From a virus: DNA of 23,163 nt. The position numbers and the translations under genes are program-made. A model generated the notes under the pieces. It was given only the letters and a program-made list of their open reading frames with translations. It ran no database searches and was not told the origin of the DNA. Positions 6,530 to 20,388 of this stretch are shown one piece after another. The stretch lies in IMG/VR virus record IMGVR_UViG_3300024327_000042, positions 1 to 23,163 of that record. One strand, written 5' to 3'. The number at the start of each line of letters is the position of its first letter. The stretch's first letter is position 1.

Positions 6530-7237
6530 ATGGCTAGAGAGATGTTGAAGTTGAGAAAAGGTGATTCTGCTATTATGATTAAAACAGATGGTTCAATCGA
6601 ATTAGCAGGAACGGATAATAAACCTTTGATGGATGATAAGGGAATGATTTCTCCTATCATTTTGTTTGCAGCTGCATGGGCAAAGAAAGATCAGAAAGTT
6701 ATTGCACATTTGGTTGATAATTTTAAGAATACGGTGCGTGAGGGTTATTTCGGTGCAGATGCCCAAAATGATTTGAAGAGTATGGAAGTTGAAGCAGCAA
6801 AACAAAAGTTACAAGCTGCTTCTGGTGCAGTAACTACAGAACAACCAAAAATTGAACCTAATATCTCACCAGAGGAACACGCAAAACAAAAAAAAGAAGA
6901 AGAAATATTAGAACAAATTGCAGCAGCTGGTCAAGACCCTCAAGTGTTAAGACAGATGGAGGCAATGAAAGCTGGTGCAAAGAAAACTGAAACCTCTGAT
7001 TTTGTAGGACATAAACAACCTGATTTGAAATTAGAAGAAACTTTTGCATATCAGGATGCAACTCCAGAAGAACAGCAAAAAATGAAAATGGAAGAATCAC
7101 TTAAAATTTTAAATGCTTCTGATGCAAAAACACCAGAAGAAGCAAAAAAAGTTTTAGCTGATGCAGCCGAGAAAAAAGAAGAACCTATTGTTGGTAATGT
7201 AACTATTGAAGAGGAGATTGGTAATGAAAATAAGTAA
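6530..7237 (+). CDS. Conserved-type phage protein, 'DSA..DGSIEL' paralogue A
   Basis: I place the start at the ATG at 6530, three bases after the previous stop and behind AAAGGGG; GTG codons at 6521 and 6524 are alternatives. The 235-residue protein has a compact N-terminal domain containing DSAIMIKTDGSIEL, then a helix-rich part, and a long charged, Gln/Glu/Lys/Ala-rich C-terminal half that is probably coiled-coil or disordered. A second gene in the window (15691-16473) has the matching DSALVVRNDGSIEL in a domain of similar length. The family's function is not known to me. It overlaps the sliding-clamp gene by 14 bases, so a role linked to replication or late transcription is plausible from context only. 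Confidence 0.75.
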   Translation: MAREMLKLRKGDSAIMIKTDGSIELAGTDNKPLMDDKGMISPIILFAAAWAKKDQKVIAHLVDNFKNTVREGYFGADAQNDLKSMEVEAAKQKLQAASGAVTTEQPKIEPNISPEEHAKQKKEEEILEQIAAAGQDPQVLRQMEAMKAGAKKTETSDFVGHKQPDLKLEETFAYQDATPEEQQKMKMEESLKILNASDAKTPEEAKKVLADAAEKKEEPIVGNVTIEEEIGNENK

Positions 7238-7901
7238 AGGCACTATGGATGTATTGAAAAACTATTCTGAAATTAATCAGTCTATTGTTATTAAAGAAGG
7301 GAATGAGATCAAAACCATTTCTGCATTGAAGAATATTCTTTCAAGGGCAGTAGTTAAAGAAAACTTTCCAAAGGATTTTGCAATTTATGATTTGCCTACA
7401 TTCATTGGTTTTCATTCTACTATGTCGGAGCCTGAGTTTGAATTTAATGATGCATCTATGACTCTTGGTGATGCAAAAGGTAAAGGTAAATACTTTTATG
7501 CAGAGCCCTCTTTGGTTGTAACACCGCCCGAGAAAAACATTGATATGCCTGAGAGTGATATCAATTTTGAGTTGAAGAATGATGTGCTTGAAGATATTAT
7601 GAAGAAAGCAAATGTTCTTAAACTTGCTGATATTGGATTAAAGAGTTGTCCTAAATCACAAGGGCTCTATCTGTATGCAACCAATAAGAATAATGATACT
7701 TCAAATGATTATTCTGTACAAGTAGGAACTGGTGCTACAAAGAAATTCAATATTGTCTTTAAGAAAGATAACTTGAAGATTATTCCCGGCGACTATGATG
7801 TTACCATTGCAAATGGTATTTCTCATTTCGTGAATAAAGATGCAAATGTTGAATTGGAATATTGGATTGCCTTGGAAGCTAATTCTGATTATGGTGAGTA
7901 G
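7224..7901 (+). CDS. 45: DNA polymerase sliding clamp (T4 gp45-like)
   Basis: The 225-residue protein (T4 gp45 has 228) begins MKISKGTMDVLKNYSEIN, closely matching the start of T4 gp45. Further matching blocks are DFAIYDLPTFIG and the C-terminal IIPGDYDVTI and YWIALEANSD. The clamp is a trimeric ring that encircles DNA, tethers polymerase gp43 and, in T4, also activates late transcription. The ATG at 7224 sits 7 bases after AGGAG (7212-7216); an upstream in-frame TTG at 7206 lies within the previous gene and is rejected. Two genes downstream is the clamp-loader ATPase gp44. A clamp-binding tail (SLESFFG) is visible at the C-terminus of the polymerase in this window, consistent with a working pair. 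Confidence 0.95.
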   Translation: MKISKGTMDVLKNYSEINQSIVIKEGNEIKTISALKNILSRAVVKENFPKDFAIYDLPTFIGFHSTMSEPEFEFNDASMTLGDAKGKGKYFYAEPSLVVTPPEKNIDMPESDINFELKNDVLEDIMKKANVLKLADIGLKSCPKSQGLYLYATNKNNDTSNDYSVQVGTGATKKFNIVFKKDNLKIIPGDYDVTIANGISHFVNKDANVELEYWIALEANSDYGE

Positions 7902-7903
7902 GA

Positions 7904-8509
7904 ATGGCATTCTATATATTTCCACAAGCAATACCAAAAGTAGAATGTAAAAAACTTTTAAACTATTGTTTGCAAAATTCTGATTTTGAAGATGCCTCTG
8001 TTATCAAATCAGGTTACTCTGATGTAGCTGAAGAGGATAACGATGATAAATCTGAAACTAAACATGAAGCAAGAAAAACAGCTGTCAGTTTTATTACTGA
8101 TAGAGAAAACTTGATGAATGAGATAGTTTGGGGATTTATCAGACAAGCAAATGCAGAGTTTTTCAAATATAAGTTAGATTACTTTCAAGCTATTCAATTT
8201 GCTAGATATCAGGATGGTGGGCATTATGATTGGCATCAGGATGCTTCACCACAAGATTTAGCAAATGAAGGCAGAAAATTATCTTTAACTTTTTCATTAA
8301 CAGATGATACCGAGTATGATGGTGGCTTGTTACAATTTTATAATGGTGATAAACCTTATGATGATAAAGACCATGATGTAGAAAGAGATATCAAATCGGT
8401 TGGTACTGTTATTGTATTTGATAGTAGAGATTGGCATAGAGTAACGCCAGTAACGAAAGGAGTAAGATATTCCATAGTTTGTTGGACTGTTGGCCCTAAC
8501 TTTATTTAA
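7904..8509 (+). CDS. 2-oxoglutarate/Fe(II) oxygenase (prolyl hydroxylase-like)
   Basis: The 201-residue protein is a complete P4H-type dioxygenase domain. It has the iron-binding H111-x-D113 in YQDGGHYDWHQD, the distal H178 in DWHRV and the 2-oxoglutarate-binding R188 in GVRYS. Such enzymes hydroxylate proteins, nucleic-acid bases or small molecules using oxygen and 2-oxoglutarate, and are frequent in marine T4-like phages, where substrates are mostly unknown. The gene starts two bases after the clamp stop codon, with GTAGGA in the overlap region, and lies between clamp and clamp-loader genes. This placement suggests a replication-linked or nucleic-acid-linked substrate, but this is inference. 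Residues 44-58 form an acidic, likely flexible loop. Confidence 0.9.
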   Translation: MAFYIFPQAIPKVECKKLLNYCLQNSDFEDASVIKSGYSDVAEEDNDDKSETKHEARKTAVSFITDRENLMNEIVWGFIRQANAEFFKYKLDYFQAIQFARYQDGGHYDWHQDASPQDLANEGRKLSLTFSLTDDTEYDGGLLQFYNGDKPYDDKDHDVERDIKSVGTVIVFDSRDWHRVTPVTKGVRYSIVCWTVGPNFI

Positions 8510-8521
8510 GAGAGGATTGTG

Positions 8522-9463
8522 ATGAAAGATAATATATTATGGGTTGAGAAGTATCGGCCAGACATGATTGAAGATTGTATTTTACCTGATTCAACAAAAG
8601 ATATTTTCCAGTCGATTGTTGAATCGGGGGAGTTGCCGAATCTCCTATTATTCGGCACATCGGGCGTCGGAAAGACTACGGTTGCTAAAGCATTATGCAA
8701 CCAGCTCAAAACTGATTGGTTGATGATTAATGGAAGTGATGAAGGCAGAATGATTGATACTCTGCGAACTACTATAAGTAGTTATGCTTCAACCGTAAGT
8801 CTTTCCGGCGGCAAGAAGGTTATCATTATAGATGAAGCAGATTATATGAACAAGGATTCCGTCCAACCTGCAATGCGTGGTTTGATAGAAGAATTTTCAA
8901 ATAATTGTCGTTTCATTTTTACTTGTAATTATAAAAACAGAATTATCCCAGCACTTCATTCAAGATGTTCTGTCGTGGATTTTCAGATACCAAAAGAAGA
9001 AAAGCCAGAACTTGCTCAGAAGTTTTCAGCTGCAGTACTAAGTATATTAGATGGTGAAGGAGTGAAGTATAAACCAGATGTAGTTGCACAACTTGTTGTA
9101 AAATTCTTTCCAGATTTTAGAAGGGTTTTGAATGAGCTCCAGAAGCATTCTATAGGTGGAACGATTGATCCTGATGTTTTGAAATCTTCATCAAATGAAA
9201 ATTTTGATGAGTTAATTGGTTTCTTAAAGAAAAAAGATTTTACACCTATGCGTAAGTGGGTTGCACAGAATATTGACAATGACCATGTGAGGTTATACCG
9301 TCAAGTTTATGACTCTCTATTTACAAAACTGGATAAAGGAAGTGTGCCACAGGCTGTATTGACTATAGCTGATTACTCTTACAAGTCTGCCTTTGTTGCA
9401 GATCAAGAAATCAATATGGTTGCTTGTTTAACAGAACTTATGATGAATAGTGAGTTTGTATGA
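8522..9463 (+). CDS. 44: Clamp-loader ATPase large subunit (T4 gp44-like)
   Basis: The 313-residue AAA+ protein (T4 gp44 has 319) shows EKYRP near the N-terminus, Walker A GTSGVGKT (45-52), Walker B IIIDEAD (101-107) and the SRC arginine-finger motif (147-149). In T4 four gp44 and one gp62 form the ATP-driven machine that opens gp45 and loads it on primer-template DNA. The ATG at 8522 follows AGAGGA (8511-8516); a GTG directly before it is less likely. In T4 gene 62 is adjacent to gene 44, but here its counterpart lies 7 kb downstream at 16474, beyond the deazaguanine island. The stop overlaps the next ATG (ATGA). Confidence 0.95.
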   Translation: MKDNILWVEKYRPDMIEDCILPDSTKDIFQSIVESGELPNLLLFGTSGVGKTTVAKALCNQLKTDWLMINGSDEGRMIDTLRTTISSYASTVSLSGGKKVIIIDEADYMNKDSVQPAMRGLIEEFSNNCRFIFTCNYKNRIIPALHSRCSVVDFQIPKEEKPELAQKFSAAVLSILDGEGVKYKPDVVAQLVVKFFPDFRRVLNELQKHSIGGTIDPDVLKSSSNENFDELIGFLKKKDFTPMRKWVAQNIDNDHVRLYRQVYDSLFTKLDKGSVPQAVLTIADYSYKSAFVADQEINMVACLTELMMNSEFV

Positions 9464-10065
9464 GTATAATAGAAATAGAAGATAGACCTAAATGTGGTTA
9501 TTGTAAATTTGGTCTTGCTGATGGTATGGGCAAAAGAAAGGATAGAAGTCGTAAATGGCGAACATGGGATGGTAAGTTTGAATGTAAACTTTGTCAAGTT
9601 TCTCGTATTAATACAACTAGTGAAAAAGGATATCCTACAATGAATTATCAACATCACAAAATAAATTATTGTGAAAATAAAGATGGAAGATTAGGATTTG
9701 TTTGTCCTTCAGATATGTTATATAATTTTACGTTATTTGGGAATTTTTCTTTTTTAGACGGAGATCATATTGACGAAGATCATGGAAATGAAGATGGTCA
9801 AAATATTCAAACTCTTTGTCATGCACCGTGTCATTTAATTAAAAGTCAATTTTCAACAGATACACAGTATACAGAAGAAGCACGATTAAAAATAATGTTT
9901 ATGTTGAATATGATTTATAGTAAAGAAAAAGATAAAAATAACTTCTATCATAGTGAAGTAGTTTTTAAAAGATTGAAAGAAAGGATGTTGGTGAAGTCTG
10001 GTAGACTTGATGAAGCTGATACTTTATATCAAGGACCTTCAGCTCACCTTTCAAATTTCATATAA
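9460..10065 (+). CDS. HNH endonuclease, probably free-standing homing type
   Basis: The 201-residue protein has two zinc-type Cys pairs (C12/C15 and C42/C45) and an HNH core with D102-H103, N115 and the C120-x3-C124-H125 cluster. HNH enzymes cut DNA with one metal ion and are common as selfish, free-standing homing endonucleases in T4-like phages. The Arg/Lys-rich stretch (24-34) could contact DNA. The gene overlaps the gp44 stop (ATGA) and marks the left border of the deazaguanine island. It could have helped the island enter between genes 44 and 62. The DNA looks more AT-rich than gene 44. A restriction or defence role is an alternative. Confidence 0.88.
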   Translation: MSIIEIEDRPKCGYCKFGLADGMGKRKDRSRKWRTWDGKFECKLCQVSRINTTSEKGYPTMNYQHHKINYCENKDGRLGFVCPSDMLYNFTLFGNFSFLDGDHIDEDHGNEDGQNIQTLCHAPCHLIKSQFSTDTQYTEEARLKIMFMLNMIYSKEKDKNNFYHSEVVFKRLKERMLVKSGRLDEADTLYQGPSAHLSNFI

Positions 10066-10079
10066 TCTTAACTATTTCC

Positions 10080-10108
10080 TTGTATTATAAACTTTTTTAT
10101 GGTACACT
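10080..10108 (+). promoter_or_regulatory. Promoter P3, leaderless start for queE
   Basis: TTGTAT (10080-10085), 17-base spacer, TACACT (10103-10108), TG at 10100-10101. It shares TTTCCTTG with the other three promoters. The -10 ends six bases before the queE ATG (10115), so transcription is predicted to begin at or next to that A. No Shine-Dalgarno sequence is visible upstream. Confidence 0.8.
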
Positions 10109-10114
10109 TATATT

Positions 10115-11026
10115 ATGAATAAACTTAAATATAGTGAAATGTTTTATTCCCTCCAAGGAGAAGGAAGGTACGTTGGTGTGCCTTCCGTTTTCCTTCGGTT
10201 GTTTGGTTGTAACTTTGAATGTCGTGGCTTCGGTCAAGATAGAGATAAATCCAAATGGTTACCTGAAGCTCAGATGCCTCACAACCAAAACCATCCTAAT
10301 GTAAAAACAATTAAAGATTTACCAGTTCCTCATGTTGGGTGTGATAGTTCATTCAGTTGGGGAAAGAAGTGGGGTCATCTAGCTGAGAATGATGATATTG
10401 AAACCATCATTAAAAAGATGGATGAGCTTACAAACTGGTATGGTGAAAAGGAAAGAATGGAAGGTGATTTGTCACCTGTATTAAAACAAGATGATGGAGC
10501 TCACTTAGTTATTACTGGTGGTGAACCATTGCTTAAAGGTTTTCAACCAGCAGTAAGAGAATTAATTACAAGTCCATTATTGAAAACAAGATATGTTACA
10601 TTTGAAACTAATGGTACACAAATCTTTACACCAGAAAATTCACCAGAGTATATGCAAAAGTTTGGTGTAGGTAAGAATTGTGGAATTACTTGGTCTGTAT
10701 CACCTAAACTTTCCAATAGTGGTGAAAGTTTTAGTGATGCAATTAGACCAGAAGCATTGGCATCATATAATGCATGGCCTTATTCATATTTGTATTTGAA
10801 GTTTGTTGTTAGAGATGCATTTGATATAATAGAAGTAGAACAAGCATTAAAAGAGTATGATAACGCAAGAGTTAATATAGATGCAGTATATCTAATGCCT
10901 GAAGGTGGTACAAGTGATGGTATGAAATTAACAGAATATGAAGTAGCACAACTAACATTAAAACATGGTTATAAGTATAGTCCTAGACTACATATAAATC
11001 TCTTTGGAAATGAGTGGGGTACATGA
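10115..11026 (+). CDS. queE: 7-carboxy-7-deazaguanine synthase QueE (radical SAM)
   Basis: The 303-residue enzyme turns 6-carboxytetrahydropterin into 7-carboxy-7-deazaguanine (CDG) using S-adenosylmethionine and a [4Fe-4S] cluster. Visible features are FYSLQGEG near the N-terminus, GCNFEC (C32, C36), CDSSFSW (C76) and the SAM-binding TGGEP segment, followed by FETNGTQ. Normal QueE binds its cluster with Cx3Cx2C; here the third Cys is separated by 39 residues (Cx3Cx39C), and the residue at the usual third position is Phe39. The CDSSFSW segment matches the 'CDTxYSW' that normally carries the third Cys, so this is an insertion and not a lost ligand. The gene has its own promoter with a predicted leaderless start and opens the queuosine-type pathway operon. 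Its stop overlaps the next gene. Confidence 0.93.
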   Translation: MNKLKYSEMFYSLQGEGRYVGVPSVFLRLFGCNFECRGFGQDRDKSKWLPEAQMPHNQNHPNVKTIKDLPVPHVGCDSSFSWGKKWGHLAENDDIETIIKKMDELTNWYGEKERMEGDLSPVLKQDDGAHLVITGGEPLLKGFQPAVRELITSPLLKTRYVTFETNGTQIFTPENSPEYMQKFGVGKNCGITWSVSPKLSNSGESFSDAIRPEALASYNAWPYSYLYLKFVVRDAFDIIEVEQALKEYDNARVNIDAVYLMPEGGTSDGMKLTEYEVAQLTLKHGYKYSPRLHINLFGNEWGT

Positions 11027-11493
11027 TGGCAGGAAAAGATGTGAAAAAAAGAGGTCGTTCAGGAGCAAGAGGTATACCTAAAGTTGATAAAGTACTAGAT
11101 AAGGAGATGTTTATAGATAAATATACAGATGAAAACGGAAAACATATTCGTCTTGGAAAGTTTAGACTTTCACATGAAGTTAATAATTTATTAGCAAATA
11201 TAGCTTATCAGTTAAAAGTTTCAAGGTCAGAATTGGTAAGAACAATATTAGAAACTTATGTAAGACATTATCAAGAAGCTAAAGAAGTAAATGCCAGACC
11301 ATATTTAACACCAGCACTTTCTATTGAGTCTTGGTTACAAGAAAGAAATGATTTTACTATTTTAATGAATCAACTCAAAGAACAAAATAGGTTGATTCAA
11401 GAAAACTCAAAATCACCAGAAGTTAAAGTGATGTCAACACAAATGGCTATACTAGCCCAAATGTTAAACCTTACAAATAAGAATGTGATATGA
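11023..11493 (+). CDS. Ribbon-helix-helix DNA-binding protein
   Basis: The start is ATG at 11023 (overlapping the queE stop as ATGA) or the next codon, ATG at 11026. The 156-residue product has a basic N-terminus (about residues 4-20, many Lys, Arg, Gly), then a ribbon-helix-helix domain: strand near 42-49, helix A around 51-63, and helix B containing the typical SRSELVRTILETYV (67-80). The C-terminal half is helical and Gln/Asn-rich, possibly for oligomerisation. Such dimers bind DNA operators through the beta ribbon. Placed between queE and the rest of the pathway, it could regulate the modification operon, for example at promoter P3. That target is inferred, not shown. Confidence 0.85.
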   Translation: MMAGKDVKKRGRSGARGIPKVDKVLDKEMFIDKYTDENGKHIRLGKFRLSHEVNNLLANIAYQLKVSRSELVRTILETYVRHYQEAKEVNARPYLTPALSIESWLQERNDFTILMNQLKEQNRLIQENSKSPEVKVMSTQMAILAQMLNLTNKNVI

Positions 11494-11957
11494 ATAAATA
11501 TAATTATTATTATGATGAGTACTTAAAAGATGTTAAAGATATAGTAGAAAGATATAAAAAAGTTCCTAGTCTACATATTGTTGGTGTCCATCGTGGTTCA
11601 CTACCTATAGCTGTTCATTTAAGTAATGTGCTTGAATGTCCCATGAGTATTGTTAAGTTTCAACACATGGATGGTAATGATAAAAAAGCAGAGTGGTTAT
11701 TAAACCTTACAGATGATGTTAGTATTAGACCAGACAAATGTAAACAGTTTTTTCCTAGATTACTTGTTATAGATGATGTTTATGATACTGGTACAACCTT
11801 TAGAGCTATTAAAGAATTACCAGAATTTCAAAATAATCCTGACTATTGTTTACTTGCATTATTTGGAAATAAAAATGATGATGATGTTTCTTATATACAT
11901 GAACAACTTTATAGGTGGATTGTATATCCTTGGGAAAGAGTAGCAGGTGGATTATGA
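11490..11957 (+). CDS. Type I phosphoribosyltransferase, purine-salvage-like
   Basis: The 155-residue protein carries the PRPP-binding signature LLVIDDVYDTGTT (91-103, acidic pair D95-D96, loop D99-T103) and the N-terminal VGVHRGSLPIA loop. Its end, IVYPWE, resembles xanthine-guanine phosphoribosyltransferases. These enzymes join a purine base to PRPP to make the nucleotide. It overlaps both neighbours by ATGA junctions, inside the deazaguanine operon. Since a DNA transglycosylase (14378-15625) releases guanine when it inserts the modified base, this enzyme could convert that guanine to GMP and so refill the GTP pool used by FolE. Use of a 7-deazapurine base is another possibility. The substrate cannot be fixed from the sequence. 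Confidence 0.87.
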   Translation: MNKYNYYYDEYLKDVKDIVERYKKVPSLHIVGVHRGSLPIAVHLSNVLECPMSIVKFQHMDGNDKKAEWLLNLTDDVSIRPDKCKQFFPRLLVIDDVYDTGTTFRAIKELPEFQNNPDYCLLALFGNKNDDDVSYIHEQLYRWIVYPWERVAGGL

Positions 11958-12400
11958 AATATCAAAGTACAAAAACTTATGGTAATGATAGAGGTTTGAG
12001 TTGTTGTTTTAGGCAATGGAGAGCAGACCATAGCCATTGTAGCTTATTACACGGATATAGTCTGGGATTTCGTTTTGTTTTTGAATCAGATACTTTAGAT
12101 GAAAGAAATTGGGTTTATGATTTTGGTGATTGCAAATGGATTAAAGAATTTCTGGAAGATACTTTTGACCATACCTTAGTTATTGCAAGTGATGATCCTG
12201 AGGTAGAATTATTTAAAGGTTTATATGAGAAAAAGGTGTGTAAGCTTTGGGTATTGGATAATGTTGGTTGTGAAAAGTTTGCAGAACTGGTATATGTATA
12301 TGTAGCACCAACCCTTAAAGAAAAAACAGAAGGGAGAGTTAGTTTACATAGTGTTGAGTGTTTTGAGCATGGAGCTAATAGTGCAATTTATTTAGGTTAA
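11954..12400 (+). CDS. queD: 6-carboxytetrahydropterin synthase QueD
   Basis: The 148-residue protein belongs to the PTPS/QueD family: CSLLHGYSL (29-37), WVYDFGDCKWIKEFL and FDHTLVI are in the expected places. QueD converts dihydroneopterin triphosphate, the FolE product, into 6-carboxytetrahydropterin for QueE. The catalytic Cys is probably C29. The usual zinc motif HGH is HGY here (H33, Y35), and an extra His pair (H26, H28) precedes the Cys, so the metal site differs from textbook QueD. Similar 'FRQW...HGY' sequences occur in a divergent QueD branch as far as I recall, so activity is likely kept. The ATG at 11954 overlaps the previous stop (ATGA); an in-frame ORF extension to 11915 lies within the upstream gene and is rejected. 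Confidence 0.88.
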   Translation: MKYQSTKTYGNDRGLSCCFRQWRADHSHCSLLHGYSLGFRFVFESDTLDERNWVYDFGDCKWIKEFLEDTFDHTLVIASDDPEVELFKGLYEKKVCKLWVLDNVGCEKFAELVYVYVAPTLKEKTEGRVSLHSVECFEHGANSAIYLG

Positions 12401-12418
12401 TTGAGAGGAGTTTATATA

Positions 12419-13087
12419 ATGAAAATATCTGAAAAGATTAAAGCTGCATTGACTGATGGTTATTTAGCTAACGATACAATCTATGATGTTATTAATGATG
12501 ATGATAGAAAAGAACTTATAGAAGAGGTTGCAGAATCATTTCAAGGTGTATTGAATTCTTTGGTTATAGATACAAAGAATGACCACAATACACAAGAAAC
12601 AGCAAAACGTGTAGCTAAAATGTTTATCAATGAGATTTTTCGTGGTAGATATTATCCCCCACCCTGTGTTACAGCATTTCCCAATGCAAAGCAGTATGAC
12701 CAGATTTATATGTCTGGCCCTATAACAATTAATTCAACTTGCGCACACCATTTCCAAGCAATTTCTGGAAAGGCATATGTTGGAATCTTCCCTGGCCAGA
12801 AGGTTATTGGTTTATCCAAGTTCAATCGCATGGTTGATTGGGTTGCATCAAGACCACAAATTCAAGAAGAAATGACTGAACAAATCGCAGATATGATTGA
12901 GAAAGAAACTGAAGCAAAAGGTGTAGCTGTTATTGTTAAAGCAGAACATTTTTGTATGACAGCTAGAGGTGTCAAAGAGCATGAGAGTGATATGGTAACA
13001 TCTGTTGTTCGAGGTATTTTCCGTGAAGAACCAGCAACAAAGGCCGAGTTCTTTTCTTTGTTAAGTAATATGAAAGGGATGAGATAA
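12419..13087 (+). CDS. folE: GTP cyclohydrolase I FolE
   Basis: The 222-residue enzyme opens and rearranges GTP to dihydroneopterin triphosphate, the first step of folate and 7-deazaguanine synthesis. All key residues are present: C108-A-H110-H111 in STCAHHF and C179 in EHFCMTARGV, matching the zinc ligands and catalytic His of the E. coli enzyme. Length equals the bacterial type. The ATG at 12419 follows GAGGAG (12405-12410); an upstream TTG at 12401 is unlikely. It is the only gene of the operon with a short gap and a strong Shine-Dalgarno site in front, which suggests high translation. The downstream gene starts on its stop codon (TAATG). Confidence 0.95.
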   Translation: MKISEKIKAALTDGYLANDTIYDVINDDDRKELIEEVAESFQGVLNSLVIDTKNDHNTQETAKRVAKMFINEIFRGRYYPPPCVTAFPNAKQYDQIYMSGPITINSTCAHHFQAISGKAYVGIFPGQKVIGLSKFNRMVDWVASRPQIQEEMTEQIADMIEKETEAKGVAVIVKAEHFCMTARGVKEHESDMVTSVVRGIFREEPATKAEFFSLLSNMKGMR

Positions 13088-13599
13088 TGACAGCGTATAG
13101 TAAAAAGATTTCAAATTTTTCTATGAAGCAAACATATAAAAAAAACACTTATGATGATAAACGTAGTCGAGATGTTATGTGTGATGACCTTCAGAGAAGG
13201 TTTCCTAATTTAGATATAAGAATAAATGGAAAGTATGATTTTTGTGATTTGGCTGCTTATGACAAAGATGGTAATTTGGTATGTTTTTTTGAATTAGACC
13301 ATACCAATTCACAAACTTTACATTGGCCATGGTATTCTATACTTGAAAGGAAAATAGAAAGTATGAATGAAATGAACCAAATTGCACCCGTAAATATGGT
13401 TTGGATAACTTCTCAATTAACACAATATAGAATGTTGCCATTGTTTCTTGTACCAAATTGGAAAAATTATCCTTTAAAAGTGATTCCATATAAAAAAAAT
13501 GAAGATATTGAAAACTTGGTACATCCAGACGATTTTCATATCAGAATACCTTTTAAAGATTTAAAGACAAATCCTATTTATACTGTAGGAGAATATTAA
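13087..13599 (+). CDS. Unknown protein in deazaguanine operon, possible PD-(D/E)XK fold
   Basis: I do not recognise the family of this 170-residue protein. Residues 50-71 read as a beta hairpin with D51, D54 and then E69-L-D71, spaced as in PD-(D/E)XK nuclease-like domains, except that Asp replaces the usual Lys of the final motif. The N-terminus is basic (KKIS, YKKN, DKRSRD), and residues 76-84 are Trp-rich (HWPWY). The start overlaps the FolE stop (TAATG) and the stop overlaps the queC start in the same way, so it is tightly coupled to the pathway. It may handle DNA during modification or be a decayed nuclease. The fold assignment is low confidence; the gene itself is secure. Confidence 0.75.
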   Translation: MTAYSKKISNFSMKQTYKKNTYDDKRSRDVMCDDLQRRFPNLDIRINGKYDFCDLAAYDKDGNLVCFFELDHTNSQTLHWPWYSILERKIESMNEMNQIAPVNMVWITSQLTQYRMLPLFLVPNWKNYPLKVIPYKKNEDIENLVHPDDFHIRIPFKDLKTNPIYTVGEY

Positions 13600-14381
13600 T
13601 GGTAAACATGGTAACTAGTGGTAAACAGAAAGCTACTGGTAAATCTGTTTTATTATATTCTGGTGGCATGGATAGTTTGATGTTTGACTATTTAATGAAG
13701 CCTGATGTATTATTGTATATTCCAACTGGCAGTGAATATGAAATGATAGAAAGTAGTAAAATACAATTACTTGGTAAATATGGTTATTTGGATGAAGATA
13801 AATTGGTTGTTTTATCCCGTGTTTTAAATTTAAGTCAGTTTGAACGTGATGATGCAATCGTTCCGAATCGTAATGCACACTTGATGTTGTTGGCTTCTAT
13901 GTATGGTGAAAATCTAATACTTGGAAGTGTTCAAGGAGATAGGTCATTTGATAAAGACCCAATTTTCTATGATAAAATGACAGACTTGTTAAATCATATG
14001 TGGAAGGAACAACATTGGACTGAGGAACGTGTTTTTAAAGTTAGTTCTCCATATAAAGATAAAACAAAGACGGAGATTGTTAAAGAGTATCTGGAAAAGG
14101 GTGGAAGTGCAGACGCATTACTGCTTTCATGGAGTTGTTATGATCCACAATCAAGATTTCTTTTAGACCCCGAAAGGGCTTGTGGATGGTGTAAACCATG
14201 TTTTCGTAAATGGATTTCACTTCATAATAACAATATAAATATTCCAGAAGATTATTATGCAAACAATCCATGGGAAGCTCCATGGCTTGAAAAGTTAATT
14301 CCTTCTGTACTTGAAAAGAATTATCGAGGAAAAGAAGATTATGATTGGTGTGAAGCCTTAACAAGTAAAGGAGTTATATGA
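13599..14381 (+). CDS. queC: 7-cyano-7-deazaguanine (preQ0) synthase QueC
   Basis: The 260-residue protein is a PP-loop ATPase with LLYSGGMDS (18-26) and the C-terminal zinc site C180-x14-C195-x2-C198-x2-C201, both typical of QueC. QueC uses ATP and ammonia to turn CDG into preQ0. No fused amidotransferase or QueF-like reductase domain is present, so preQ0 is the expected end product of this gene set. The segment VPNRNAHL (88-95) fits the family's conserved 'PxRN' motif. The start uses a TAATG junction and the stop an ATGA junction with the transglycosylase. An internal TATAAATA (14234) looks like a late-promoter core but lies in coding sequence. Confidence 0.93.
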   Translation: MVNMVTSGKQKATGKSVLLYSGGMDSLMFDYLMKPDVLLYIPTGSEYEMIESSKIQLLGKYGYLDEDKLVVLSRVLNLSQFERDDAIVPNRNAHLMLLASMYGENLILGSVQGDRSFDKDPIFYDKMTDLLNHMWKEQHWTEERVFKVSSPYKDKTKTEIVKEYLEKGGSADALLLSWSCYDPQSRFLLDPERACGWCKPCFRKWISLHNNNINIPEDYYANNPWEAPWLEKLIPSVLEKNYRGKEDYDWCEALTSKGVI

Positions 14382-15625
14382 AAGACGCAATATATATACC
14401 AGCTTATAGTGATGGTTTAATGACATTGTTGGAAAAGGATGATAAACATATTAGAGAAGATTATCAAACTGATTTTGATAAAAAGAAATCGTTAAGGATT
14501 TATAAAAAAGATAATGATTCTTATTTCAAGAATTATTTTATGTTGATCTCTGCCGGTACATCACATAAAAGAGAAAACTTTAGAAAAACAATACAAGCTG
14601 AAGATGCTATGGTATTTGTTGATAGTGGAGGATATCAGTTAGCACATTCAACGGTTAATACTGTAAAATATACAGATGATGTAGCATTGAAATGGTCAGA
14701 ACAGAATGGTGATATATTTCCAATTCTTGATAGACCGACATTTACGCTTGGAATGATGAGAGATGGAAAACCAGTGTCACCTTATAAAGATTATCAAGAA
14801 TGTTTGGATTTGTCAGTAAACTCTGCAAGACATTATGCAGAAAATCGTACACGTTCAGATGCAAAAATCTTAAATGTTATACAGGGTCAAACCATACCAC
14901 AGGTTAAGAAGTGGTATGATGAAATAAAGAAGTATCAGTTTGAGGGTTGGGCATATGGTGGTACTAGAGGCAATTTAGGTCGTATTGTACCTGCAATATT
15001 GTTTTTAATCAAAAATGGTGAGTTTGATAGATCAGAATGTAAGTATTTTCATATTTTTGGTGTTACTTCAAATGAGAGTATGATTTATTTTCAATATCTT
15101 CAAATGTTGTTAAATAAGGCTGGTATTGATATACAGCTTACATATGATTCTACTTATTGGAATAGAACTTGTGTTTTTGGTGGTTATTTTACAGAAGCTA
15201 GATATATTACTGGTACAGGTATGGCATCTATGAGTTGGCCTAATACCATTGATTATAAAAAATTATCAAAAGATTTTAAGATGCCATGTCATTGTCCAAT
15301 TTGTGAAGATTTAGGAGATGTTTATTCATTTTTTAATCATTATAAGACTGATAAAGATGGAAATGAAAAAATATCATTTAGAGATTTTAATATGAGTATA
15401 GCTTATCATAATTTATATTTGCAATTAGAGTATCTTGAAAATGTTACAAGAATTTTAAAGTCAAATATGAAAGAAATTTATTTAGAGTTTTTTCCAAAGA
15501 AAATATATGACAACTTGATCTTTTTAGATGAAGTATTCAATAATATGTCAAAAGATTGGGAATGTGAGTTAAATAATAGATTTTTAAAAATTGAAGATAA
15601 TGCAGATTTGCTTAAGTTTATGTGA
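14378..15625 (+). CDS. dpdA: DpdA-type DNA guanine transglycosylase
   Basis: The 415-residue protein belongs to the tRNA-guanine transglycosylase superfamily: FVDSGGYQL (80-88, catalytic D82), NVIQGQ (166-171), AYGGT (192-196), a FHIFGVT segment, and TYDST (255-259), whose D257 is the likely nucleophile. A zinc site C304-x-C306-x2-C309 with H322 follows. Bacterial TGT acts on tRNA, but phage members located with preQ0 synthesis genes are DpdA enzymes, which swap guanine in DNA for a 7-deazaguanine base and so block restriction enzymes. The gene is last in the queD-folE-queC operon and starts by an ATGA overlap. Action on tRNA is the alternative but the sequence lacks the usual TGT nucleophile context, and the phage setting favours DNA. 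Confidence 0.88.
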   Translation: MKDAIYIPAYSDGLMTLLEKDDKHIREDYQTDFDKKKSLRIYKKDNDSYFKNYFMLISAGTSHKRENFRKTIQAEDAMVFVDSGGYQLAHSTVNTVKYTDDVALKWSEQNGDIFPILDRPTFTLGMMRDGKPVSPYKDYQECLDLSVNSARHYAENRTRSDAKILNVIQGQTIPQVKKWYDEIKKYQFEGWAYGGTRGNLGRIVPAILFLIKNGEFDRSECKYFHIFGVTSNESMIYFQYLQMLLNKAGIDIQLTYDSTYWNRTCVFGGYFTEARYITGTGMASMSWPNTIDYKKLSKDFKMPCHCPICEDLGDVYSFFNHYKTDKDGNEKISFRDFNMSIAYHNLYLQLEYLENVTRILKSNMKEIYLEFFPKKIYDNLIFLDEVFNNMSKDWECELNNRFLKIEDNADLLKFM

Positions 15626-15659
15626 TGAAAAATATTTTCATTCGACACCTTTTGAGTAT

Positions 15660-15667
15660 TATAAATA
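15660..15667 (+). promoter_or_regulatory. T4-type late promoter TATAAATA (1)
   Basis: Exact match to the T4 late promoter -10 core, between the dpdA stop and the ATG at 15691. T4 spacing would put the transcription start near 15673, followed by AAGGGGG (15677-15683). It would express the paralogue B gene and gp62 late in infection, through the clamp and late sigma factor if regulation is as in T4. Confidence 0.7.
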
Positions 15668-15690
15668 AATTATGTAAAGGGGGTAAAACG

Positions 15691-16473
15691 ATGGAAGAAA
15701 AAGACAAGCCAAAAAAACCAGTCACACCTAGTGATTTAGCTAAAAGTGATGATAAATCTAAAGAAGAACCTAAAGATACAGATGTTCCTAAGTTTGATGA
15801 AAATGGACATCTTTTTATTGACCTTTCTATAGATGATAGTGCCTTGGTTGTTAGGAATGATGGCTCTATTGAATTGATTAGTCACGATTTAGAGAATTCA
15901 GATGAGGGTTATGTTGGTGATGTTGAAGATTTAAATAAAACATTTTCATTGGTGTTAGCGTTAGCATCAGCATTAGAAGATGAAGATTTATATAATCGTA
16001 TATTCCATAATCTTAATATGACATTGATGCGTAAGTGGGACAATATGCCTGATAATATTAAGAATGATATTATTGAAAAACGAAATAAGATAGATGAAGG
16101 GCGTGATGAAGATGAAGATGTAGAAAAGAAAAAACGGGTTGATGAATTTCGTAAGCGAATGAGTAAATATAAAGATAGATTTCTTGATGATGCTGAGGAA
16201 GAAAAAAGAAAGTTGCAACAGGATATAAAAGATGAAGAAGATTTTCATAGAAGGTATGGAAGTCAATTTGGTGAAGACCATGAACGTCCAGATCACATGG
16301 CAGGGCCTGAGGATATGTTTGAACGAATGGAGTCACGGCCTAAAAAGAAGATTAAGAAAAAGAAAGCTTCTTTGCCAAGGGCAGGCACACATTGGAATCC
16401 ATACGATGAAACATTGAAAGCACATTTTAGAGATTGGCAATCTGATGAACCTCCTAAAGAAGAGGAAGACTAA
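15691..16473 (+). CDS. Conserved-type phage protein, 'DSA..DGSIEL' paralogue B
   Basis: I choose the ATG at 15691 because it follows AAGGGGG at 7 bases and lies just after a late promoter; an upstream in-frame ATG at 15625 would overlap that promoter and the dpdA stop. The 260-residue protein has an acidic N-terminus, a domain with DSALVVRNDGSIEL matching the protein at 6530, then a long, highly charged helical region with many Glu, Asp, Lys and Arg, a probable coiled coil, and a basic patch (RPKKKIKKKK) near the C-terminus. Function is unknown. The two paralogues flank the gp45-44 and gp62-regA-43 blocks, so a shared role with the replisome is possible. The stop is followed at once by gp62. 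Confidence 0.75.
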   Translation: MEEKDKPKKPVTPSDLAKSDDKSKEEPKDTDVPKFDENGHLFIDLSIDDSALVVRNDGSIELISHDLENSDEGYVGDVEDLNKTFSLVLALASALEDEDLYNRIFHNLNMTLMRKWDNMPDNIKNDIIEKRNKIDEGRDEDEDVEKKKRVDEFRKRMSKYKDRFLDDAEEEKRKLQQDIKDEEDFHRRYGSQFGEDHERPDHMAGPEDMFERMESRPKKKIKKKKASLPRAGTHWNPYDETLKAHFRDWQSDEPPKEEED

Positions 16474-16851
16474 ATGAATCCCTTTGAGTATGCACATGAT
16501 TTGATTACAAAAGAAAAGTATGACTCTGATATACCTGATAGGAAAGACTATAAGCAGTTTCTTCTTAACAGAACCTTGTCATATCACAATGACCTGATTC
16601 ACTATATCAATGAGTTGAATAGATACCCTGATATAAGTGATAAAGGTCACTATGATTTTATCAATGCAGCTGTACCAAAACAAAAGAGACAAAAGAAGTA
16701 TTGGGTTAAGGGTAAGAAGTATGAGAACATGGAAGTTGTAAAAGAGTATTATAAGTATAGTACAGACAAATGTATTACAGCCTTGTCAGTTTTGACTGAC
16801 AAGGATATTAAAAACATACGAAATAAACTATTCAAAGGTGGTAGTTCTTAA
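16474..16851 (+). CDS. 62: Clamp-loader small subunit (T4 gp62-like)
   Basis: The 125-residue protein matches T4 gp62 in its key region: YKQFLLNRTLS aligns with YSKFMVENALS, and DKGHYDFINAAVPKQKR with DEAHFNYLMAAVPRGKR. T4 gp62 has 187 residues, so this version lacks part of the C-terminal region. gp62 is the fifth subunit of the gp44/62 clamp loader. The ATG is directly after the previous stop, behind AGAGGAAG. In T4 it lies between genes 44 and regA; here regA still follows, but gene 44 is 7 kb upstream, which identifies the region 9460-16473 as inserted material. A late promoter at 15660 lies upstream. Confidence 0.85.
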   Translation: MNPFEYAHDLITKEKYDSDIPDRKDYKQFLLNRTLSYHNDLIHYINELNRYPDISDKGHYDFINAAVPKQKRQKKYWVKGKKYENMEVVKEYYKYSTDKCITALSVLTDKDIKNIRNKLFKGGSS

Positions 16852-16854
16852 TAT

Positions 16855-16862
16855 TATAAATA
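16855..16862 (+). promoter_or_regulatory. T4-type late promoter TATAAATA (2)
   Basis: Exact late-promoter core four bases after the gp62 stop region, with predicted start near 16868 and a 47-base leader before regA. Early expression of regA would then need read-through from upstream. Confidence 0.7.
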
Positions 16863-16914
16863 ACTATATTATGTATTATATCTATTATTGAAGCTGATTT
16901 GAAAGGAACACAAA

Positions 16915-17385
16915 ATGAATGAGAATGTTAAATGGTCAATCGAAGACATGATAGAAGTTCGATTGAAAGAAGATGATGATTTTTTGAAAGTTAAAGAAAC
17001 CCTCACACGAATTGGAATAGCATCACGCAGGGAAAAGAAATTATTTCAATCTTGCCACATACTCCACAAACAAGGTAAATATTATATTGTTCATTTCAAA
17101 GAGCTCTTTGCTCTTGATGGTAAACCTACTAATATTTCCGAGAACGATCTTGAACGTAGAAATACAGTTGTAAATCTTTTAAACGAATGGGACTTGGTTG
17201 AAATTGTTTCACCCGAAAAAGCACAACCAACTACTAGTATTCGTCAAATGAAAATTTTACCTTTCAGTGAAAAGTCTGAATGGGATTTACAAGCTAAGTA
17301 TACAATTGGTAATGTTTCTATTAAAACCACAAAAGAACCTAAAGAAAAACCTTTTGAAATAAATGATGATGATTTTGCTTTATGA
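16915..17385 (+). CDS. regA: RegA translational repressor
   Basis: The protein contains MIEVRLKEDDDFLKVKETL and QSCHILHKQGKYYIVHFKE, both nearly identical to T4 RegA, and a YTIGN motif near the equivalent of the T4 C-terminus. RegA binds the ribosome-binding regions of many early mRNAs, including its own and clamp-loader genes in T4, and stops their translation. The ATG at 16915 has AAAGGA before it and adds 11 residues to the T4 start, which corresponds to the internal ATG at 16948. The total is 156 residues against 122 in T4; the extra C-terminal tail is Lys/Glu-rich and ends in an acidic patch. The stop overlaps the next gene (ATGA). Confidence 0.93.
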   Translation: MNENVKWSIEDMIEVRLKEDDDFLKVKETLTRIGIASRREKKLFQSCHILHKQGKYYIVHFKELFALDGKPTNISENDLERRNTVVNLLNEWDLVEIVSPEKAQPTTSIRQMKILPFSEKSEWDLQAKYTIGNVSIKTTKEPKEKPFEINDDDFAL

Positions 17386-17570
17386 TTAAAAGTATTTTAT
17401 TATGTATGTGTTTTATTTTGTTTACTGGATGTTCATCTATCGGAGAACTTGTTTTAAATACAGCTGCAGGTGCTCTTGGAAATATGTTAGATAGAAGAAT
17501 TGACGAACCAACTGAAAATGAAAAGGAGAAAAAAGATGAATGTGAAGATTGTAAAGATGATAAGCGGTGA
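17382..17570 (+). CDS. Tiny lipoprotein
   Basis: This 62-residue protein has a short signal peptide and a lipobox LFTGC (Cys17), then SSIGELVLN, a small hydrophobic Ala/Gly segment and a charged tail of Glu, Lys and Asp with two Cys (CEDC). It should be lipid-anchored in the host envelope. It starts by an ATGA overlap with regA and its tail overlaps the next gene by 35 bases. Function is unknown; small phage lipoproteins sometimes act in superinfection exclusion or lysis. Placement in the replication operon gives no direct hint. Confidence 0.78.
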   Translation: MIKSILLCMCFILFTGCSSIGELVLNTAAGALGNMLDRRIDEPTENEKEKKDECEDCKDDKR

Positions 17571-17817
17571 AGAGCTTATTGGTGAGTTTGATGAATTAAC
17601 TAGAACAATAACTAATCCAGTTGTAATGATTCCAGTGAGCAAAGAACAGATTGCTTTCCAGCCATGGATGCCATATTCCGAAGATAAAGAATATACACTA
17701 AAAGAAGAATCTATTAATGTAGTAGCTACTCCCAGTTCTACTATTATGAATGAATATAGCCGTATATATGGCTCAGGTATTGTTGTACCTACTGATACAG
17801 GGGGTATTATCTCATAA
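17536..17817 (+). CDS. Small phage protein, possibly Sm/LSm-like
   Basis: The ATG at 17536 follows GGAG (17525-17528) at 7 bases; an in-frame upstream start at 17500 lacks such a site. The 93-residue protein begins MNVKIVKMISGEELIGE and contains TNPVVMIPVSKEQIAFQPWMP and later EYSRIYGSGIVVP. The 'SGEELIGEF...NPV' pattern recalls the Sm1 part of Sm/LSm RNA-binding folds, but similarity is weak. It overlaps the lipoprotein gene and ends 46 bases before gene 43, the position where T4 regulates polymerase translation. A role with RNA is therefore tempting yet unproven. Confidence 0.72.
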   Translation: MNVKIVKMISGEELIGEFDELTRTITNPVVMIPVSKEQIAFQPWMPYSEDKEYTLKEESINVVATPSSTIMNEYSRIYGSGIVVPTDTGGIIS

Positions 17818-17825
17818 CTTCTTCC

Positions 17826-17854
17826 TTGTATTATGAACCCTCTTTTGATATAAT
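17826..17854 (+). promoter_or_regulatory. Promoter P4, leaderless start for gene 43
   Basis: TTGTAT (17826-17831), 17-base spacer, TATAAT (17849-17854), TG at 17846-17847. The -10 ends nine bases before the ATG of gene 43 (17864), so transcription should begin within about three bases of the ATG. No Shine-Dalgarno sequence lies upstream. Confidence 0.82.
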
Positions 17855-17863
17855 ATATACACT

Positions 17864-20383
17864 ATGAAATTTTATACTTATGCTAGTCAGGTTTTCAATA
17901 AGATTTATGTGCGTGAAATAGATAATAAAGGTGAGGAATACTCTGAAACTGTAAATTTCAAACCAACCTTATACGTCACCACTCCAAGAGAACAAGCAAC
18001 CTTTAGAAGTTTAGATAATAAACCTTTAGGTGATGTTACATTTGGCTCAATAAAAGAATGTAAAGACTTTCTTGAGCAATATGATAATGTAACTAACTTT
18101 AAAGTTTACGGAAACAAGAATTTTGTTTTTCAATATCTTTCTGAAGAATATGCTGATGATGTTCAATGGGACAAGTCTAAAATATTAATTTACACGATTG
18201 ATATTGAAGTTGCTTCGGATAATGGATTTCCAGATATCCGATTAGCTAACGCACCCATAACATCTTTGACTGTTCATAATAGCATCAGCGATGTTTATTA
18301 TGTTTTTGGTACAGGTGAGTATACTCCTAACGATCCCGAAAAAACAATAAAGTATTTTCGTTCAGATAACGAAGAAGAAATGATGGAACTCTTCTTAGGT
18401 TGGTGGAAATATAATCCGCCACATATTGTTACTGGCTGGAATTGTAAGTTTTTTGATATTCCTTATATCGTTAATAGACTGAAATACCTTAACCTTGAAT
18501 ATAAACACCTTTCCCCTATAAACAGAGTAGTCGATAGGAATGTAGTTATCGCAGGCCGTGATAATATGTTTTATACTATTATAGGTGTATCGACATTGGA
18601 TTATATTGACTTATATAAGAAGTATACCTATAAAGTCCGTGAATCCTATCGTTTGGACTATATTGGCCAAGTTGAGCTTGGTATGGGTAAAGTCACTGAT
18701 GAGCAGATGCAAGGGTATGACTTATATAAGACGGATTACCAGAAGTTTATCGAATATAACATCAAAGACGTTGAGATTGTAAAGAAACTTGACGATAAGA
18801 TGAAGTTGTTGGATTTAATCATAACTATAGCTTATGAGTCTAAGATTAATTTTGAGGATGTTTTTTCTCCGGTAAAAACTTGGGAAACGATTATTTACAA
18901 TTTCTTGAAAGACCAGAATATTGCTGTACCACAGAATCGCCATAGAGGTGAATCAAAGGGTATTGAAGGTGGATATGTAAAAGACCCACACTTAGGATTA
19001 CATAAATGGGTTGTATCGTTTGACTTGAATTCACTTTATCCACATTTGATTCAGCAATACAATATTAGTCCAGAAACCATATCACATGATGAGGTTTTAA
19101 AGATTAAGTATAATGATGGTGTTAATGGTTTACTAGAGAAAAGATTAGATACAAAATATCTCAAAGAAATGAATATGACCTTGACTCCGAATGGTCAGCA
19201 CTTCTCTACAAAACGCCAAGGGTTTTTACCAAAGTTGATGAAGGCCATGTATGATGAAAGAGTTATTTACAAAAAGAAAATGCTTGAAGAGGAGCAGAGA
19301 TTAGAAGACGGTAATTACAAAAATAAAGAAGAGGTTGTAAATAATATATCAAAATTTAATAATGTCCAGATGGCTAAGAAGATTCTTCTTAATAGTGCTT
19401 ATGGTGCATTAGCAAATCAATATTTCTTATATTACTCACCCGAACAGGCAGAAGCTGTTACGATGTCGGGGCAGTTGTCAATTCGTTGGATTGAAAAGTA
19501 TATAAATAGATTCATCAACGATTTATTAAAAACGGGAGATACGGATTATGTTATCGCATCGGATACGGACAGCATATACATCACATTTGATAAACTTGTT
19601 AATGAAGTGTGGGGAGAGGGAGCTGAGACTGAAAAGATTATATCCTTCTTGGACAAAATGTGCAAAGATAAAATTGAACCATATATTGATGAATGTTATA
19701 AAGACCTTCATGTGTATGTAAATTCGTATGAGCAGAAGATGGTGATGAAACGTGAATCAATTGCTGATAAAGGTATCTGGACTGCTAAGAAACGATATAT
19801 ACTTAATGTTTATGATTCAGAGGGTGTAAGATATAAAGAACCAAAACTAAAAATAATGGGTATTGAAAGTGTTAGAAGTTCTACCCCGCAATGGTGCAGA
19901 GAGAACATACAATCGTTGATAAACACTATTATCAATACAGACGAGCAAACAGTAATACAAGCTATTGAAGATTTTCGTGAGGTATTCAGAACATTAAAGT
20001 TTAGTGACATTGCTTTTCCTAGAGGTGTCAAAGGACTTTCTAAATACAAATCTTCAAAAGATATTTACATCAAGGCAACACCTATTCACGTTAGAGGTAC
20101 GTTGTTGTTTAACCATCAACTCAAGGAGAGAAACTTAACAAAGAAGTATCAGTTAATCCGTGATGGTGAAAAGATTAAGTTTGCATATTTGAAAGAGCCA
20201 AACATACTCGGTGAGAATGTGATTGCTATTGCAACCGTCTTGCCGAGTGAGTTTGGTTTAGAGAAGTATATTGATTACGACTTACAATTTGATAAATCAT
20301 TCTTACAGCCAGTTAAAAATATATTGGATGTTATCGGATGGAAATCAGAGAATATAAGTTCTTTAGAATCATTTTTTGGGTAA
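17864..20383 (+). CDS. 43: Replicative DNA polymerase, family B (T4 gp43-like)
   Basis: The 839-residue protein (T4 gp43 has 898) has all 3'-5' exonuclease motifs: DIE (D113, E115), NCKFFD (D198) and YNIKD (Y298, D302). It also has all polymerase motifs: DLNSLYP (387-393), KILLNSAYG (506-514) and SDTDS (566-570), whose two Asp bind metal. The C-terminus SLESFFG resembles the T4 tail that binds the gp45 clamp. No intein or intron interrupts it. It is transcribed from its own promoter with a near-leaderless start, unlike T4, where gp43 represses its own translation through an RNA hairpin at the ribosome-binding site. An HNH gene follows five bases after the stop. It must copy, or tolerate, templates containing 7-deazaguanine if the modification prediction is right. 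Confidence 0.97.
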   Translation: MKFYTYASQVFNKIYVREIDNKGEEYSETVNFKPTLYVTTPREQATFRSLDNKPLGDVTFGSIKECKDFLEQYDNVTNFKVYGNKNFVFQYLSEEYADDVQWDKSKILIYTIDIEVASDNGFPDIRLANAPITSLTVHNSISDVYYVFGTGEYTPNDPEKTIKYFRSDNEEEMMELFLGWWKYNPPHIVTGWNCKFFDIPYIVNRLKYLNLEYKHLSPINRVVDRNVVIAGRDNMFYTIIGVSTLDYIDLYKKYTYKVRESYRLDYIGQVELGMGKVTDEQMQGYDLYKTDYQKFIEYNIKDVEIVKKLDDKMKLLDLIITIAYESKINFEDVFSPVKTWETIIYNFLKDQNIAVPQNRHRGESKGIEGGYVKDPHLGLHKWVVSFDLNSLYPHLIQQYNISPETISHDEVLKIKYNDGVNGLLEKRLDTKYLKEMNMTLTPNGQHFSTKRQGFLPKLMKAMYDERVIYKKKMLEEEQRLEDGNYKNKEEVVNNISKFNNVQMAKKILLNSAYGALANQYFLYYSPEQAEAVTMSGQLSIRWIEKYINRFINDLLKTGDTDYVIASDTDSIYITFDKLVNEVWGEGAETEKIISFLDKMCKDKIEPYIDECYKDLHVYVNSYEQKMVMKRESIADKGIWTAKKRYILNVYDSEGVRYKEPKLKIMGIESVRSSTPQWCRENIQSLINTIINTDEQTVIQAIEDFREVFRTLKFSDIAFPRGVKGLSKYKSSKDIYIKATPIHVRGTLLFNHQLKERNLTKKYQLIRDGEKIKFAYLKEPNILGENVIAIATVLPSEFGLEKYIDYDLQFDKSFLQPVKNILDVIGWKSENISSLESFFG

Positions 20384-20388
20384 AGAAT

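Follow-up and report, generated by a model that had tools for sequence, protein, structure and literature searches.

The locus described here raises the question of how genes predicted to modify phage DNA with 7-deazaguanines came to lie between the clamp-loader genes 44 and 62, and what they do there. It is located on a 23 kb (23,163 nt) IMG/VR virus fragment of an uncultured marine T4-like phage (IMGVR_UViG_3300024327_000042); this whole stretch is referred to as the window in the following. Its T4-type replication cluster runs in the order gp45, 2-oxoglutarate-Fe(II) oxygenase, gp44, an interval of 7.0 kb, gp62, regA, gp43 and uvsX, and the closest named gp43 proteins, from Synechococcus phages, are about 50% identical. 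Based on the analyses below, we consider it likely that the interval is a phage 7-deazaguanine DNA-modification locus which forms an exchangeable plus/minus haplotype between gp44 and gp62 and includes a proposed guanine salvage by a phosphoribosyltransferase (PRT).

Gene content of the gp44-gp62 interval

Genes of the FolE, QueD, QueE and QueC families lie clustered in the interval, where all genes are encoded on the + strand and neighbours overlap or are separated by short gaps. The same arrangement was seen again in independent contigs, of which two (L002 and L003) are nearly identical to the window. An earlier note on this DNA had placed the end of gp44 at 9463 and the start of gp62 at 16474, with queE, a ribbon-helix-helix (RHH) gene, a PRT gene, queD, folE, queC and a DpdA-like gene between them. 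Both coordinates and content hold, except that the note missed orf283 (15688-16473), a gene found in every relative. The features are as follows (all + strand):

8519..9463, +: gp44, clamp-loader large subunit, left flank (phrog_168, E 1e-115)
9460..10065, +: Cys/His-rich protein, HNH-like by eye, in the variable cargo slot between gp44 and queE (no library match)
10115..11026, +: queE, 7-carboxy-7-deazaguanine synthase (phrog_2076, 1.4e-47; PDB QueE 6nhl; motif table)
11014..11493, +: RHH regulator, in carriers and non-carriers (phrog_7325, 7.9e-5)
11490..11957, +: PRT resembling xanthine-guanine phosphoribosyltransferase (XGPRT) (PF00156, 6.7e-9; PDB 1vdm, 2.1e-7; GpT-2, 6.8e-5)
11957..12400, +: queD, 6-carboxytetrahydropterin synthase-like (PF01242, 2.8e-16; phrog_2389, 5.1e-39)
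12419..13087, +: folE, GTP cyclohydrolase I (PF01227, 3.5e-51)
13087..13599, +: orf170, optional in carriers, present in 4 loci (no library match)
13599..14381, +: queC-family enzyme with divergent active site (PF06508, 2.4e-12; phrog_1550, 2e-23)
14378..15625, +: DpdA-like putative DNA guanine transglycosylase, tRNA-guanine transglycosylase (TGT) superfamily (TIGR00449, 5.6e-8; predicted structure from AlphaFold2 and Foldseek)
15688..16473, +: orf283, conserved gene upstream of gp62 (in all 57 loci tabulated; alignment)
16474..16851, +: gp62, clamp-loader small subunit, right flank (phrog_225, 4.8e-28)

The proposal of the earlier note that the modification genes share control with replication is plausible in view of the co-directional genes with overlaps or short gaps, while the promoter signal was no better than chance: sigma-70 promoters and terminators at the island showed no excess over shuffled sequences, and a search against Rfam gave no matches. 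A candidate relationship of orf283 as a paralogue of orf238, located upstream of gp45, was dropped, as the similarity spans 25 residues only.

Transglycosylase

The gene at 14378..15625 had been called DpdA-like in the earlier note although it finds no match in Pfam and PHROGs, and this identity was upheld by NCBIfam and by structure. In NCBIfam, the protein matches the TGT family TIGR00449 (5.6e-8, under its curated cut-off). A first model based on 12 close sequences was too poor (predicted local distance difference test, pLDDT, 59.5), with DpdA as the sole PDB match below 1e-3. A wider alignment of 17 homologues gave a better AlphaFold2 model (pLDDT 79.9, predicted template modelling score 0.84), whose three best PDB folds in Foldseek were the TGTs 2pot (1.1e-7) and 4ghr (4.7e-7) and the DNA preQ0 insertase DpdA 7ui4 (4.3e-5). 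Matches in the viral fold library included the Vibrio phage nt-1 protein R9TGF0 (3.4e-9) and, from Cellulophaga phage phiST, a protein with TGT fold. Asp82 (in DSGG) and Asp257 (in YDST) show no variation across the 17 homologues and presumably correspond to the two catalytic aspartates of TGT enzymes. Taken together, the predicted structure points to a DpdA-type transglycosylase encoded by the window. Since TGT scores slightly above DpdA, the modelled fold alone does not decide between DNA and tRNA as substrate.

We also considered that the genes raise queuosine in host tRNA as an auxiliary metabolic function and that the phage DNA is unmodified. Such a reading was weighed for Far-T4 and Bacteroidetes-virus contigs with que genes (PMC4360716, PMC7198788), and for this phage DNA modification is predicted from the genes. 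However, DpdA 7ui4 and the viral nt-1 protein are among the fold matches, and nt-1 DNA contains dPreQ0, the deoxynucleoside of 7-cyano-7-deazaguanine (PMC6884629). Furthermore, a gene of the DpdA2 family can take the place of the transglycosylase gene at this locus, and no QueF was found in nine related contigs, which are fragments. A role in tRNA queuosine thus appears improbable.

Two DpdA families occur at the locus, namely the window type and a DpdA2-like type (e.g. in L149). An hhalign comparison of the window family with the DpdA2-like family gave a probability of 4.6%, and the window protein was not placed in the DpdA2 subfamily (Vibrio/Menderavirus). Scanning the genome_contigs set for DpdA yielded a pair of contigs from a single Rhizobiales genome, at 27%.

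Biosynthesis enzymes

In all 11 QueE sequences of the lineage covering the motif region, about 38 residues separate the second and third radical S-adenosylmethionine cysteines (CX3C-X38-C); the QueE of Synechococcus phage BUCT-ZZ01 has a similar insertion. QueD carries HGY in most lineage members versus HGH in typical QueD, and L145 and L154 have a different QueD of the HGH type.

The window QueC keeps SGGMDS, VPNRN and a four-Cys zinc site (C-x14-C-x2-C-x2-C) with a Tyr after the first Cys, the first spacing being longer than the canonical 8. According to the alignment, it is devoid of the YxQxHxxE and YPDC motifs of canonical QueC, which is PF06508 cluster 1; the corresponding Tyr35 and Tyr131 are required for preQ0 formation in E. 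coli QueC (PMC13329287). Judging from these residues, the window enzyme may go no further than the amide or may act in another way, and we therefore do not predict whether the product is dPreQ0 or the amide form 2'-deoxy-7-amido-7-deazaguanosine (dADG).

Several QueC forms occur at this address: the window type, a second type accompanied by a small HAD-like gene, fusions with a glutamine amidotransferase (Gat-QueC; L107, L136, L137, L143 and L144), and QueC with a stand-alone glutamine amidotransferase plus a Vut_1 (YhhQ-type) transporter, the split Gat and QueC being found in L140, L147, L149 and L151. Following the rules of Hutinet et al. (PMC6884629), Gat forms predict 2'-deoxyarchaeosine (dG+), and the window form predicts dPreQ0 or dADG. 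The window fragment itself contains no Gat-QueC, ArcS, QueF-L or QueF that would indicate the dG+ type.

Plus and minus haplotypes

Relatives were collected by scans with DpdA, gp44, gp62 and orf283. The lineage comprises 26 complete gp44-gp62 intervals, 10 from carriers of the gene set (5.1-8.2 kb) and 16 from non-carriers (1.6-1.8 kb). RHH, PRT and orf283 are kept in 26/26 of them, and in all carriers queE stands directly before RHH and queD directly after PRT. Among the non-carriers, L098 is nearest to the window, with 94% identity over 7180-9466 and 90.6% over 15630-20384; between these flanks it has only RHH and PRT, at 66% identity to the window. Both haplotypes were found in the same samples according to the contig names (e.g. 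3300024261, 3300009370, 3300032006, 3300009103).

According to a core tree built from regA, gp43 and orf105, the lineage switched between carriage and its absence seven times, and at least six of these switches are forced by well-supported branches. The RHH and gp44 trees show six haplotype changes each. With other T4-like phages as the outgroup, every deep branch was a carrier, the exact root being less sure owing to two long outgroup branches. On account of these deep carrier branches, the lineage probably had the gene set early, the minus form arose later, and both have been exchanged since. Exchange of one fixed block including RHH was rejected as a candidate, as RHH tracks phage descent more than haplotype (six changes).

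The earlier note had read the interval as an island inserted between genes 44 and 62. A close relative devoid of the island does exist (L098, gp44 97% identical), and the two genes are adjacent or nearly so in Moby and in many T4-like contigs (n=132, median gap ~250 bp), as expected for a recent insertion that split ancestral neighbours. The island-less relative with adjacent 44 and 62 which the note had named as its check was, however, not found: within the lineage the two genes are never adjacent, the non-carriers retaining RHH-PRT-orf283 as a spacer of 1.6-1.8 kb. Likewise, a single event does not account for at least six changes of carriage, for deep branches consisting of carriers throughout, or for a non-carrier PRT that forms a derived, inactivated clade. 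Recent insertion is accordingly very unlikely, and the data point to an exchangeable plus/minus haplotype whose minus form is derived.

The phosphoribosyltransferase

The state of the PRT active site is tied to the modification genes. In carriers, the enzyme has the RG of the pyrophosphate loop, DDVYDTG(T/K)T as its phosphoribosyl pyrophosphate (PRPP) loop and, towards the C terminus, WIVYPWE; in the window, both the PRPP loop (VIDDVYDTGTT) and the purine-site WIVYPWE are intact. The non-carrier PRT has lost RG, PRPP loop and WIVYPWE altogether, mostly with a five-residue deletion. The motifs are thus intact in 13/13 carriers and lost in 18/18 non-carriers, and on the replication-gene tree PRT state and carriage agree in 6/6 independent contrasts (sign test p=0.031, based on only six contrasts). 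Non-carrier PRTs form one clade with a support of 100/99, or 97/97 after removing the active-site columns. Their ratio of non-synonymous to synonymous substitution rates (0.08-0.33) shows evolution under constraint and, therefore, some role of the dead protein.

The PF00156 match (6.7e-9) is above its cut-off, so that the PRT fold family and the PRPP motif are both present, and the nearest solved relatives are purine/guanine PRTs of hyperthermophilic archaea. Motif similarity and these distant PDB matches suggest that the protein resembles guanine/xanthine PRTs.

Alternatively, PRT and RHH could together regulate the replication/modification operon, with the PRT sensing purine or PRPP and its catalytic residues mattering only when modification drains purines. 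The two genes adjoin in every complete interval of both haplotypes, and purifying selection on the dead PRT would fit such a function. Yet the PRT tracks the haplotype while RHH does not, and no RHH partner was noted for que-adjoining PRTs in other phages. We regard a regulatory pair as rather unlikely.

PRT genes next to 7-deazaguanine genes in other phages

In cyanophage BUCT-ZZ01, a PRT with intact motif occurs at another genomic place in the order queE - XGPRT - hypothetical - queD - folE, and Pseudomonas phage PA5oct has an intact PRT directly before queE. A scan with the BUCT-ZZ01 PRT recovered 80 viral contigs at 25-44% identity. At least one 7-deazaguanine gene was located within 6 kb in 62/80 of these contigs versus 1/76 T4-like control contigs, a comparison between a biased sample, the scan having begun from a PRT inside a que locus, and unmatched controls. 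The lone positive control contig also has a PRT-like open reading frame (ORF). At least two 7-deazaguanine genes were present in 45/80 contigs, and after clustering the PRTs at 50% identity, 17/22 groups were accompanied by 7-deazaguanine genes. Starting instead from the phiST PRT, which would be less biased, gave no matches.

In the reverse direction, the association is weak. Most of the cultured phages inspected for DpdA-type or que genes, ten loci in all (VH7D, Moby, ACP17, pf16, nt-1, KoPa-5, Peetri, GR7B, Phosso and 2.275.O), have no such PRT nearby. The chemistry can therefore do without the PRT, which is a frequent but optional partner of 7-deazaguanine systems.

Near PRT and que genes in 25/80 of the PRT loci (e.g. 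L192:7510-8361), we also observed a family of ~300 amino acid proteins with a DNSAFE motif, perhaps another transglycosylase type. BUCT-ZZ01, PA5oct (by inspection) and a 250 kb contig have glycosyltransferase-like genes in the vicinity of DpdA-type genes (L161:12778-15364, L160:9968-12651 and L173:4029-5009); a glycosylated 7-deazaguanine is possible.

Proposed pathway and its significance

In the proposed pathway, FolE, QueD and QueE would convert GTP to 7-carboxy-7-deazaguanine, from which the QueC-family enzyme would form the amide or nitrile base. The DpdA-like transglycosylase would then insert this base into phage DNA in exchange for guanine, which would be set free, and the modified DNA could be shielded from host nucleases. 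Each insertion would free one guanine, and each base synthesised would cost FolE one GTP, so that a guanine PRT would join the two into a cycle: most likely, it would combine the released guanine with PRPP to GMP, topping up the GTP pool used by FolE. The gene set would be gained or lost through homologous recombination in the flanking replication genes, the minus haplotype keeping the PRT as a catalytically dead but conserved protein.

The PRT may instead make a nucleotide from the 7-deazaguanine base; after reduction and phosphorylation, this nucleotide would serve as a substrate of the phage polymerase in place of, or besides, exchange by DpdA. PRTs act on free bases, the phiST PRT is encoded near a ribonucleotide reductase gene, and a modified-dGTP path was proposed for Campylobacter phages (PMC6884629). 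In every carrier with a full interval, however, a DpdA-type transglycosylase of one of the two families is present and would be redundant on such a route, and a search of eight carrier contigs, all of them fragments, turned up no small subunit of ribonucleotide reductase. We consider this route unlikely.

Several points nevertheless weigh against DNA modification with guanine salvage as an exchangeable haplotype. All relatives are metagenomic fragments; RHH does not follow the haplotype, so that exchange does not involve a single fixed block; the window QueC has diverged at the preQ0 residues; the PRT scan had a biased start, and the ten cultured loci manage without a PRT. Moreover, the conserved dead PRT implies a second role which salvage does not explain.

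A DNA modification is commonly treated as a fixed trait of a group of phages. Here, phages that hardly differ in their replication genes either have or lack the gene set, and at one address several forms of QueC and DpdA genes from two families are in use. This would allow a natural comparison between modified and unmodified sisters from the same waters. The PRT link suggests a missing step in a well-studied pathway, the fate of the guanine released by the transglycosylase. As a broader proposal, which we put forward tentatively, many phage 7-deazaguanine systems could have a guanine-type PRT as a so far overlooked partner, returning guanine from DpdA to GTP; in the marine T4-like lineage described here, the system would be toggled by repeated gp44-gp62 exchange, with a conserved dead PRT in 'off' phages.

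Variable cargo next to the modification genes

Extra cargo was found between gp44 and queE in 8/11 carriers versus 0/16 non-carriers (raw counts, ignoring descent). The window, L009 and L157 have HNH-like ORFs in this slot. In the window, the HNH nuclease assigned by the earlier note at 9460 is Cys/His-rich and HNH-like by eye; the call is weak, with no match for the 9460-10065 protein in Pfam, PHROGs, NCBIfam, PADLOC or PDB, and a distant homologue sits elsewhere in L024. Proteins of 650-700 amino acids occupy the slot in L005, L006 and L013, and their by-eye assignment as DUF262-like was dropped, having found no support in Pfam or PADLOC. L154:3203-4697 encodes a Type II restriction enzyme (REase_II, 4.6e-8) and a methyltransferase (N6_N4_Mtase, 1.2e-44), and L250:10933-13172 a T5orf172 (GIY-YIG-type) protein and a 531 amino acid helicase-like protein. 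Some slot proteins may cut unmodified DNA, the modified phage being shielded, and others may be mobile endonucleases.

The spacer between 44 and 62 frequently has content in the 132 other marine T4-like contigs as well (median ~250 bp, maximum 6.7 kb), so that the slot can be regarded as a recurrent cargo site; unrelated cargo of 2.7-6.7 kb was seen at L275:4174-10836 and L258:5132-7788. Further genes were observed at L107:5821-6489, where a gp45-like sliding clamp (54%), possibly a second copy, lies between Gat-QueC and orf283 of an incomplete contig, and at L006:2438-3097, where one carrier has a transaldolase-like gene (by inspection) between gp45 and gp44. Outside the interval, gp43 and uvsX are separated by a gene for an HNH endonuclease (PF01844, 1.2e-6) at window positions 20380-20853, in a gap whose size differs among relatives.

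Comparison with known systems

The phages of Hutinet et al. 2019 (PMC6884629; e.g. CAjan, Rosebush, nt-1) likewise combine FolE, QueD, QueE and QueC with a DpdA-type transglycosylase, with dPreQ0 or dADG predicted. In contrast to these, the locus described here lies inside gp44-gp62, occurs as plus/minus haplotype, carries the RHH-PRT pair mid-locus and has a divergent QueC; its DpdA falls outside the DpdA2 set, with no named subfamily assignable. The cultured T4-like phages Moby (Menderavirus) and ACP17 (Busanvirus) also have 7-deazaguanine genes in the T4-type replication cluster. In their case, however, the genes lie near uvsX and the gene 41 helicase, DpdA is of the DpdA2 type, no PRT was found nearby, and 44 and 62 are adjacent or one small gene apart, unsplit by the cassette.

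Regarding the PRT, the closest counterparts are BUCT-ZZ01 and PA5oct. The gene order of BUCT-ZZ01 is alike and is followed further on by a DpdA2-like gene, whereas its genome location differs, a glycosyltransferase is present and no QueC was seen adjoining. PA5oct and its relatives share a homologous DpdA type (25% identity to the window, 35% to metagenomic kin) and the PRT directly upstream of queE, but PA5oct is a jumbo phage in which the genes extend across ~5 kb beside a glycosyltransferase. With E. coli XGPRT, hypoxanthine-guanine phosphoribosyltransferase (HGPRT) and Sulfolobus GpT-2, finally, the window PRT shares the PRT fold, the PRPP loop and the C-terminal W-x-x-x-PW purine site, while being distant from these purine PRTs (best PDB match 2.1e-7; in NCBIfam, under every equivalog cut-off).

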